IMG/VR virus record: IMGVR_UViG_3300021368_000105
Location: 1 to 23,372 of that record
Length of the DNA stretch: 23,372 nucleotides
Strand: one strand, 5' to 3'
Source: a virus
The stretch's first letter is position 1. Each line of letters opens with the position of its first letter. A model generated the notes under the pieces. The model did no database searches. It was given only the letters and a program-made list of their open reading frames with translations, and had not been told where the DNA came from. This document shows positions 17,090 to 22,774 of the stretch, piece by piece. The position numbers and the translations under genes were made by a program.

Positions 17090-17134
17090 CGTTCATCCCA
17101 CTTTGGTGGGACGCAAGTAAGTCGCGGAACGGAG
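17090..17134 (+). ncRNA. Glutamine riboswitch-like RNA (glnA/Downstream-peptide motif)
   Basis: The RNA has CGTTCATCCC, a hairpin TCCCAC-TTTG-GTGGGA (17096-17111), then GGGACGCAAGTA and GCGGAACGGAG. P1 can form between CGTTC (17090-17094) and GAACG (17127-17131). These conserved blocks match what I know of the glutamine-binding glnA and Downstream-peptide RNAs, which occur in cyanobacteria and cyanophages upstream of short ORFs. Here a 56-aa ORF follows directly. GGAG at 17131-17134 is the likely ribosome-binding site for that ORF, so folding could control translation. A second CGTTCATCCCA (17135-17145) abuts the start codon and can compete for GAACG. Confidence 0.8.
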
Positions 17135-17144
17135 CGTTCATCCC

Positions 17145-17315
17145 ATGTTTGAATTACTATTCTATGCAAATATGATGTGTTCTGATGCTGATGCACTAGT
17201 GTTCAGGATCGAAAAGAACAGATCAGAATTACCTCCACACATAGTTTTGGAGTTAGTAGAGACCGTAAAGGAATCTGTGCCTGAATGTAATCATTACTGG
17301 GACGCACACGACTGA
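17145..17315 (+). CDS. Short protein under riboswitch control, 56 aa, unknown
   Basis: The ORF starts at the ATG at the end of the riboswitch-like leader (GGAG ten bases upstream) and encodes MFELLFYANMMCSDADALVF and so on, ending YWDAHD. It is acidic and helical, with two cysteines. The Downstream-peptide riboswitch class is named for such short ORFs of unknown function. Its last codons form the repeat GGGACGCA seen in the riboswitch upstream, so RNA constraints act on its 3' end. Expression probably follows glutamine (nitrogen) status in the infected cell (inference). Confidence 0.8.
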   Translation: MFELLFYANMMCSDADALVFRIEKNRSELPPHIVLELVETVKESVPECNHYWDAHD

Positions 17316-17361
17316 AGGAACGGGTAACGGATCCAGCGAAAGCTGAGAAGGTTAATCACCC
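17299..17361 (+). promoter_or_regulatory. Second riboswitch-like 3' half and structured leader of the DUF4278 gene
   Basis: GGGACGCA (17299-17306), ten bases, then GGAACGG (17317-17323) repeats the 3' half of the upstream riboswitch with identical spacing. It is followed by a possible stem-loop: GGGTAAC (17322-17328) pairs with GTTA (17351-17354) and CCC (17359-17361), enclosing a CAGC-GAAA-GCTG hairpin with a GNRA tetraloop (17334-17345). The structure ends ten bases before AGGAG of the next gene. Confidence 0.55.
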
Positions 17362-17381
17362 TATTATTTCAGGAGTCAATC

Positions 17382-17546
17382 ATGAACACCTTAACACTGA
17401 TCAAAAAGCAAATCGACAAAGCAGCAGCTCTTCATGACGCACAAATCAACGTCACCAAATATCGTGGTGTTGACTGTGTAGTTCATCAAGTACCTGAGGA
17501 AACTCACGGCACCTTCTGCTATCGTGGTCGCACATACGTCAAGTGA
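17382..17546 (+). CDS. DUF4278-type small protein, 54 aa
   Basis: The product carries the duplicated YRG pattern of DUF4278: KYRGVDC and, about 20 residues later, FCYRGRTYVK. The family is small and found in cyanobacteria and their phages; its function is unknown. AGGAG six bases before ATG 17382 is a clear ribosome-binding site. The gene is preceded by a structured leader and followed by a terminator, so it is the last gene of the riboswitch transcript. Confidence 0.8.
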   Translation: MNTLTLIKKQIDKAAALHDAQINVTKYRGVDCVVHQVPEETHGTFCYRGRTYVK

Positions 17547-19128: not shown

Positions 19129-19311
19129 ATGAACGCAGAGTTCTACGAAAACGAAGCAACAACCGATGCATTGTTCGATCTTTTTATCGATCAACTGCAC
19201 CATTTTGCCGAGCTTGAGTCGGAGGAAGACCTTGCAACCACTGGGTCAGTAGCTCAGCGGATAGAGCAACTGCCTTCTAAGCAGTCGGTCGTAGGTTCGA
19301 TTCCTACCTGA
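19129..19311 (+). CDS. Small acidic ORF running into the tRNA gene, 60 aa
   Basis: The frame follows the strong promoter and has a possible GGGAG ribosome-binding site ten bases upstream. The first 38 residues (acidic, DALFDLFIDQLHHFAELESE) look like a real protein, but the last 22 are encoded by the tRNA gene on the same strand (SVAQRIEQLP and on). It may therefore be a truncated gene, or a gene that uses the tRNA for its stop. Function unknown. Confidence 0.5.
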   Translation: MNAEFYENEATTDALFDLFIDQLHHFAELESEEDLATTGSVAQRIEQLPSKQSVVGSIPT

Positions 19312-19315
19312 CCCG
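19243..19315 (+). tRNA. tRNA-Arg(TCT)
   Basis: The sequence folds as a full cloverleaf: acceptor GGGTCAG/CTGACCC, D stem GCTC/GAGC, anticodon stem ACTGC/GCAGT with loop CTTCTAA (anticodon TCT, reading AGA), and T arm GTAGG-TTCGATT-CCTAC. The discriminator is G at 19315 and CCA is not encoded. It reads the AGA arginine codon, which occurs often in this phage; tRNA-Arg(TCT) is a frequent cyanophage tRNA. Confidence 0.96.
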
Positions 19316-22623: not shown

Positions 22624-22774
22624 CATGAACACGTTACGAAATGTAACACGTCATACACGCCTCACCGAGACTAAACAGCGTGTCAAAACAACAGTCTCTC
22701 ATACCTCTGCTTAGGGTGCAGAGGAATAGTAACTCCACCATTTCCCTGATGGTCTTACTTATTTCTTATTCAAA
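22624..22774 (+). promoter_or_regulatory. psbA 5' leader with two hairpins
   Basis: About 150 bases without a convincing gene. Seen: GTTAC-GAAAT-GTAAC (22633-22647) near the transcript 5' end and CCTCTGC-TTAGGGT-GCAGAGG (22704-22724). No ribosome-binding site stands before the psbA ATG. Structured leaders (PhotoRC-II RNAs) are known upstream of phage psbA; I cannot confirm that this is one. A 29-codon frame at 22625-22714 begins almost at the promoter and is probably not translated. Confidence 0.5.

Follow-up and report, generated by a model that had tools for sequence, protein, structure and literature searches.

A composite glutamine riboswitch probably lies in this stretch of an IMG/VR virus record with cyanomyovirus-like gene order (nrdA, nrdB, talC), acting as an ON switch for a small DUF4278-like gene and also openable by ribosomes that finish an open reading frame (ORF) embedded within it. 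The whole stretch, 23,372 nucleotides long, is called the window below. At a finer grain, and with rather more reserve, two glutamine aptamers are proposed to lie head to head through a shared helix, P3, the inner one circularly permuted and with protein genes in one P2 loop or in both; shared start-codon, stop-codon, and Shine-Dalgarno bases would then tie ligand binding to translation both of the embedded genes and of the gene downstream, each depending on the others. Comparison among related loci shows P3, the outer P2 helix, an anti-Shine-Dalgarno pairing, optional ORFs with matching Shine-Dalgarno sequences, and constraint at the RNA level at the ORF end. Riboswitches are usually seen as non-coding leaders; here one or two small genes would have their coding sequence inside the aptamer fold, and a single stop codon would serve together as stop signal, as part of loop E, and as anti-Shine-Dalgarno sequence.

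Two motif copies and the helix between them

Exact string counts place both halves of the motif where an earlier note on this DNA had put them. The window has exactly two occurrences each of the 5' half, CGTTCATCCC (17090-17099 and 17135-17144), and of the 3' half, GGGACGCA-N10-GGAACGG (17108-17132 and 17299-17323); for the latter, 0.21 occurrences are expected per shuffled window when up to three mismatches are allowed. The embedded ORF (17145-17315) begins one base past the second CGTTCATCCC and its stop codon falls within the second 3' half. The composite was found in 188 distinct related cyanophage loci, 12 isolates included, where the 5' half of copy 2 precedes the ATG of a gene of 51-56 amino acids (phrog_504) and the 3' half covers its stop codon. 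More than 120 exact matches to GGGACGCA-N6-TGAAGGAACGG occur in viral contigs, nearly all of them at the end of a phrog_504-like ORF with CGTTCATCC before it, and the same arrangement was recovered by protein-level and copy-1-level searches that left the 3' half unspecified. Because relatives keep this arrangement, a chance origin of copy 2 is excluded. The note was right to place the ORF in a P2 loop within a riboswitch element, and the conservation of the 3' half is one of RNA, beyond what the protein alone would call for. The features are as follows.

17090-17095, + strand: outer P1 5' strand CGTTC plus A (5' half of copy 1); CGTTCA is invariant in relatives
17096-17111, + strand: outer P2 hairpin TCCCAC-TTTG-GTGGGA (strands 17096-17101 and 17106-17111), with covariation
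17112-17119, + strand: CGCAAGTA, with CGCA as ligand-contact strand and AAGTA as the 5' strand of loop E, matching RF01739/RF01704
17120-17124, + strand: P3 5' strand AGTCG, partner of 17309-17313; 110/110 distinct sequences pair at all 5 positions
17126-17131, + strand: GGAACG, P1 3' element of copy 1; under nesting it would pair with 17135-17139 and close the inner aptamer
17131-17134, + strand: GGAG in the triloop that separates GAACG from CGTTC, putative Shine-Dalgarno sequence for the embedded ORF
17135-17140, + strand: CGTTC plus A again, here in copy 2 as the inner P1 strand; invariant in relatives
17141-17145, + strand: inner P2 5' strand TCCCA, whose final A is the A of the start codon; pairs with TGGGA at 17298-17302
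17145-17315, + strand: embedded ORF, 56 amino acids, phrog_504 (match E=3e-20), inside the inner P2 loop
17298-17302, + strand: inner P2 3' strand TGGGA; covariation weak
17303-17308, + strand: CGCACA (CGCAAA in most cases), ligand-contact strand of the inner core; no variation in codons GAC and GCA (64/64)
17309-17313, + strand: P3 3' strand CGACT, covering the stop codon's T as well as codons 55-56
17312-17317, + strand: CTGAAG, anti-Shine-Dalgarno strand in the alternative fold, complementary to 17367-17372; covariation, and present in the window minimum free energy (MFE) fold
17313-17315, + strand: stop codon TGA, whose GA belongs to the GAA of loop E
17317-17322, + strand: outer P1 3' strand GGAACG (P1 is 17090-17094 with 17318-17322)
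17367-17372, + strand: TTTCAG, partner of 17312-17317, overlapping the Shine-Dalgarno sequence AGGAG (17371-17375) of the next gene
17382-17546, + strand: downstream gene, 54 amino acids, phrog_545, DUF4278-like (PF14105 E=0.002, under the gathering cut-off), putatively regulated

Are the two copies separate elements or parts of one RNA? The copy 1 spacer, AGTCG, is the reverse complement of the copy 2 spacer, CGACT, across the ORF. When loci were chosen by copy 1 only, with the copy 1 spacer forced to differ, the matching change was found in copy 2 about 190 bases away, giving the strand pairs AATCG/CGATT, AATCT/AGATT, AGACT/AGTCT, AGTCA/TGACT, ATTCG/CGAAT, and GATCG/CGATT. The helix is present in 188/188 loci, with a one-base shift in one of them, and in the 110 distinct cores all 550/550 cells are paired with six kinds of changed pairing. 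Two-sided changes affect pair 2 (G-C, A-T, or T-A), pair 3 (T-A or A-T), and pair 5 (G-C, A-T, or T-A). Sliding one strand by a single position lowers pairing from 100% to 24% or less. None of 2000 shuffles of the 110 distinct cores reached the observed pairing, a statistic that overstates the number of P3 events because the loci are related. The loci are also partly redundant and the ORF tree is poorly supported; the 18 changes mapped to the 5' strand on this weakly supported tree represent at most about 18 independent events, and for the main P3 change there are only 2 strictly supported independent pairs. Since the spacers of the two copies pair with covariation, there is a strong sequence-based case that both copies form one composite RNA joined by P3. 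The suggestion that copy 2 is a relic or a separate, degenerate switch does not survive this pairing, and a relic is likewise rejected by the retention of copy 2 in related cyanophage loci.

A reading by coding constraint only would attribute the second 3' half to a conserved C-terminal WDA[NH]D and a Shine-Dalgarno-like GAAGGAACGG after the stop codon, with no RNA switch. WDA.D is indeed among the best conserved residues. However, the GAC and GCA codons at the ORF 3' end are fixed in 64/64, and GAC GCA AAC shows no synonymous change even though GAT serves for Asp elsewhere in the ORF. The coding changes follow the non-coding copy 1, and some matched P3 changes swap one amino acid or one stop codon for another, as where Asp becomes Glu and TGA becomes TAA (L208, L218, L223); because several changes alter the protein in this way, RNA pairing overrides coding. 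ORF-less loci also keep the motif. Conservation of protein alone is refuted by the matched changes with copy 1, the absence of synonymous change, and these ORF-less loci, and it deserves scarcely any credence.

Proposed outer and inner aptamer cores

With P3 established between the copies, a glutamine-I order becomes visible in the outer aptamer: CGTTC-A-P2-GACGCAAGTA-P3 ... P3'-GAA-GGAACG. Outer P2 covaries across the ORF of about 200 nt (TCTCA/TGAGA, TCTTA/TAAGA, TCCTA/TAGGA, TCACT/AGTGA), and both P2 and P3 thus show the covarying pairing of glutamine-I members; an A-A mismatch stands at pair 4 in 24/49 distinct rows of ORF-bearing outer P2. The P1 strands are invariant throughout, which makes P1 uninformative for covariation. 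By sequence, loop E is made up of AAGTA in copy 1 opposite GAA in copy 2 (AAA where the stop is TAA). Thus copy 2, which the note had called degenerate for lack of AAGTA, receives that strand from copy 1 and supplies the GAA that copy 1 is missing. Glutamine-I members lie upstream of nitrogen-related or DUF4278 genes, and the composite stands upstream of a DUF4278-like gene, although the Pfam score of the window protein is under the cut-off.

Rfam scores for copy 1 of the window are sub-threshold for both Glutamine-II (30.2 bits, gathering 33) and Glutamine (26.9 bits, gathering 35), and the latter shortfall is probably due to the ORF. In two ORF-less composites, the Rfam glnA model scores above its gathering value of 35 (43.6 bits in L088, where it independently arrives at the order given above with P3 drawn between the two copies, and 39.6 bits in L098). 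The window fold is only mildly better than those of shuffles (z -1.46). The case for the RNA architecture as such is strong. Glutamine contacts C1, G2, G18, C39, and G40 in the glutamine-II aptamer, C1 and G2 being located in the CGTTC strand (PMC6698751). The equivalent residues here come from three strands: CG in CGTTC, G in CGCA, and CG in GGAACG; all glutamine-contacting residues of 6QN3 are present in the sequence of both cores. The conserved contacts point to glutamine as the putative ligand, which would have two binding sites.

P3 normally ends in a small loop. Here it would hold a second glutamine-aptamer core, consisting of GGAACG-gag-CGTTCA, P2' (TCCCA/TGGGA), and CGCACA. The enclosed sequence, C-GGAACG-gag-CGTTCA-TCCC...GGGA-CGCAAA, includes every element of this core in circularly permuted order, and the inner, ORF-bearing aptamer is, as far as the letters can tell, the mirror partner of the outer one. 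Split and permuted layouts are plausible because the glutamine-II aptamer is functional as two RNAs cut at the linker after CGCA (PMC6698751). Inner P2 pairing is weakly shown: a test for compensatory change with the pre-ATG CATCCC, as proposed in the earlier note, found modest support (UCCUU/AAGGA in L223 and C-G to U.G elsewhere), because the stem hardly varies. P1 would be nested rather than strand-exchanged, two arrangements that look the same in sequence because the P1 strands never vary.

Alternatively, the locus could hold two ordinary tandem glutamine aptamers that are pseudo-cooperative and have their own P1 helices (17090-17094/17127-17131 and 17135-17139/17318-17322), in which case AGTCG:CGACT would be a kissing contact and the second P2 loop would merely house the ORF. 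Glutamine riboswitches do occur in tandem, with 157 doublets known (PMC9481103), glutamine-II was crystallised as a strand-exchanged dimer (PMC7357161), and in two loci (L097, L179) Rfam prefers the inner 5' strand, reading it with the terminal 3' strand as the aptamer. However, each copy alone would be without half of loop E, and only the nested reading gives the complete glutamine-I order. In L088, the nested fold reaches -28.3 kcal/mol against -21.2 kcal/mol for the tandem fold, in which P3 cannot be counted, and the GAACG-gag-CGTTC hairpin, with its loop of 3-6 nt, should form at once. The tandem arrangement is therefore considered unlikely.

Embedded genes and proposed control of the DUF4278-like gene

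An ORF of 62-75 amino acids (phrog_6471 type) takes the place of the outer P2 hairpin in about half of the loci; its stop codon lies within the P2 3' strand. The outer/inner P2 loops hold hairpin/ORF in 90 loci, ORF/ORF in 87, hairpin/hairpin in 4, and ORF/hairpin in 1; the inner ORF is absent from five loci. Because all four combinations occur, the RNA core is constant and the ORFs are optional. GGAG accompanies the inner ORF, being present in 176/184 loci with it and in 0/5 without it (Fisher p=7e-7). The phrog_504 and phrog_6471-type families are related (hhalign 93.9%, E=1.6e-7, cysteines aligned), which suggests duplication of an ORF-bearing unit.

The phrog_504 protein is conserved along its whole length and has two invariant Cys. 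Both embedded families (window 17145-17315; phrog_6471 relatives, e.g., L006) have a hydrophobic N-terminus and two invariant cysteines, and these small proteins are possibly exported or disulfide-bonded. An AlphaFold model of the 56-amino-acid protein has three helices (pLDDT 81); no significant PDB match to the model and no Pfam family for the protein were found.

How might the composite act on the gene downstream? CUGAAG spans the end of P3, the stop codon, and loop E, and its complement lies in UUYAGGAG, the region around the Shine-Dalgarno sequence of the DUF4278-like gene; in S-SSM5 the orthologous position is annotated DUF4278. Among the tabulated loci, the stop codon of the embedded ORF is either TGA or TAA; TAG does not occur. 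Where the stop is TAA, UUUAG is found in 24/24 loci, as predicted before the tally; where it is TGA, UUCAG occurs in 120 and UUUAG, the wobble partner, in 34 of 154 (about 22%). The association between stop and UUYAG holds among distinct cores (Fisher p=5e-7). TTYAGGAG is found at 124/128 starts of composite loci vs 23/490 other starts on the same contigs, and the MFE fold of the window contains CUGAAG:UUUCAG. This covariation shows the anti-Shine-Dalgarno pairing at the level of sequence and supports the idea of a signal from the stop-codon region to the DUF4278-like gene; the decisive pairings, P3 between the copies and this downstream one, were not proposed in the earlier note.

Without glutamine, CUGAAG, stop codon included, would pair with UUUCAG at the Shine-Dalgarno sequence and the DUF4278-like gene would be off. 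With glutamine, P3, loop E, and P1 would use CUGAAGG, leaving the Shine-Dalgarno sequence free and the gene ON. In L088, the anti-Shine-Dalgarno fold has -35.5 kcal/mol and the best fold with P1 and P3 -28.8 kcal/mol, before any gain from ligand or tertiary contacts; the greater stability of the former is as expected for an ON switch. Both glutamine-I and glutamine-II are ON switches (PMC6698751, PMC6316151), and the direction of switching would by analogy be the same here. A ribosome terminating at the embedded stop codon would hold CUGAAG open, so that translation of the embedded gene would be a second input. The start codon, coding end, and stop codon of this gene would all be parts of aptamers, and with its GGAG in the inner P1 hairpin, glutamine binding would also repress it.

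Could the embedded ORF itself be the main sensor? In leader-peptide type control, the position of the translating ribosome would open the downstream Shine-Dalgarno sequence, and glutamine binding would be secondary or lost. The stop codon does lie in the anti-Shine-Dalgarno strand and covaries with its partner, and a Shine-Dalgarno sequence accompanies the ORF. However, ORF-less composites (L088, L097, L098, L179) keep the whole RNA core and the anti-Shine-Dalgarno sequence, the ligand-contact residues are strictly kept in both cores, and a protein conserved along its length with two invariant Cys is unlike a pure leader peptide. Leader-peptide control is thus quite improbable, and the composite glutamine riboswitch is preferred.

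In IF17, an inactivating factor of glutamine synthetase, DUF4278 makes up the N-terminal part (PMC6698751, PMC6316151). The composite suggests that phages sense host nitrogen status via glutamine to control a DUF4278-like relative of that factor. The end of a -10-like hexamer lies 7-9 bases ahead of the first CGTTC in 126/168 loci, and the transcript therefore probably starts at the aptamer. In relatives, a palindrome with a -10-like centre (GGTCTATAATAGACC type) lies 7-9 bases before the aptamer (e.g., L088 8320-8337), a possible promoter-operator. Between the composite and the DUF4278-like gene, window 17326-17358 holds a small conserved element, ACGGATCC-NNN-GAAA-NNN-GAGAAGGTTAA, found in 43/168 loci, window included. 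Its stem covaries (agc/gct, tgc/gca, acc/ggt, tcg/cga, atc/gat), and there is no Rfam match for it.

Relation to known RNAs and distribution

The composite shares with glutamine-I (glnA motif, RF01739) the order CGUUCA-P2-GACG.AAGUA-P3-GAA-GGAACG; in cyanobacteria, glutamine-I is an ON switch for DUF4278/IF17-type genes (PMC6316151). It differs in that its P3 would hold a second aptamer core instead of a small loop, its P2 loops contain complete genes, and GACGCA replaces GACGGA. With glutamine-II (Downstream-peptide motif, RF01704), which is found in marine picocyanobacteria, it shares the CGCA strand, small downstream proteins, and predicted ON switching (PMC2864571, PMC6698751, PMC6316151), but the small ORF is inside the aptamer and not after it. 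Glutamine-II also has a hairpin flanking GGAACGG with a CGUUC pseudoknot; an independent hairpin of this kind is rejected in the composite, where the CGC/GCG strands are not kept, the bases after GGAACG vary (GAG, GTA, GAT, GAA, GGG), and copy 2 provides the partner for the strand preceding GGAACG.

Tandem glutamine riboswitches have been described (PMC9481103, PMC2864571). Pseudo-cooperative tandems such as glutamine doublets and the glycine riboswitch (PMC9481103) likewise have two aptamers for one ligand in one leader. By contrast, the copies of the composite are not self-contained aptamers with their own platforms: they share a covarying helix, complete each other's loop E, and have genes in their loops, and one anti-Shine-Dalgarno platform was found. 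Group I and II introns have ORFs in peripheral loops. The composite resembles them in carrying a complete, optionally present ORF in a loop of a structured RNA; it differs as a predicted metabolite-sensing mRNA leader that is not self-splicing and has start and stop codons within its core helices. Glutamine riboswitches in cyanophages have been mentioned (PMC9964418, PMC9602691). The open-access literature yielded no earlier description of an ORF inside a riboswitch aptamer, a nested glutamine riboswitch, or a shared P3, in agreement with the note, which knew of no riboswitch with an ORF in such a place. The locus hints at a pair of aptamers that nature has circularly permuted and joined by a shared helix.

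The composite was present in 12/12 phage isolates or genomes inspected (S-SM1, ACG-2014h, S-IOM18, Syn33, metaG-MbCM1, S-SSM5, S-SSM4, ACG-2014d, S-CAM1, S-RIM2, Syn1, and S-TIM5), whose records have only CDS features and no RNA annotation at the locus. Diverse marine cyanophages carry it, yet searches of the Rfam type overlook it because a gene splits the motif. Its genomic surroundings differ among loci (nrdB-talC, speD-td, and others), which suggests that it is a cassette. The exact core GACGCAAGTANNNNNCGGAACGG had 7 matches in 84,980 species genomes, roughly the chance expectation and none of them cyanobacterial, and a host origin is rejected on these grounds. Two of the 7 matches (L236, L238) are cyanophage-like contigs binned as Euryarchaeota, in the GTDB genome 'Euryarchaeota archaeon TMED129'; they carry the composite, phrog_504, and the DUF4278-like gene, and this assembled genome appears contaminated. 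Elsewhere in the window, a tRNA gene (Rfam RF00005, 73.8 bits) lies at 19243-19315 amid a stretch of small ORFs, and a PhotoRC-II RNA (59.9 bits) at 22644-22737.
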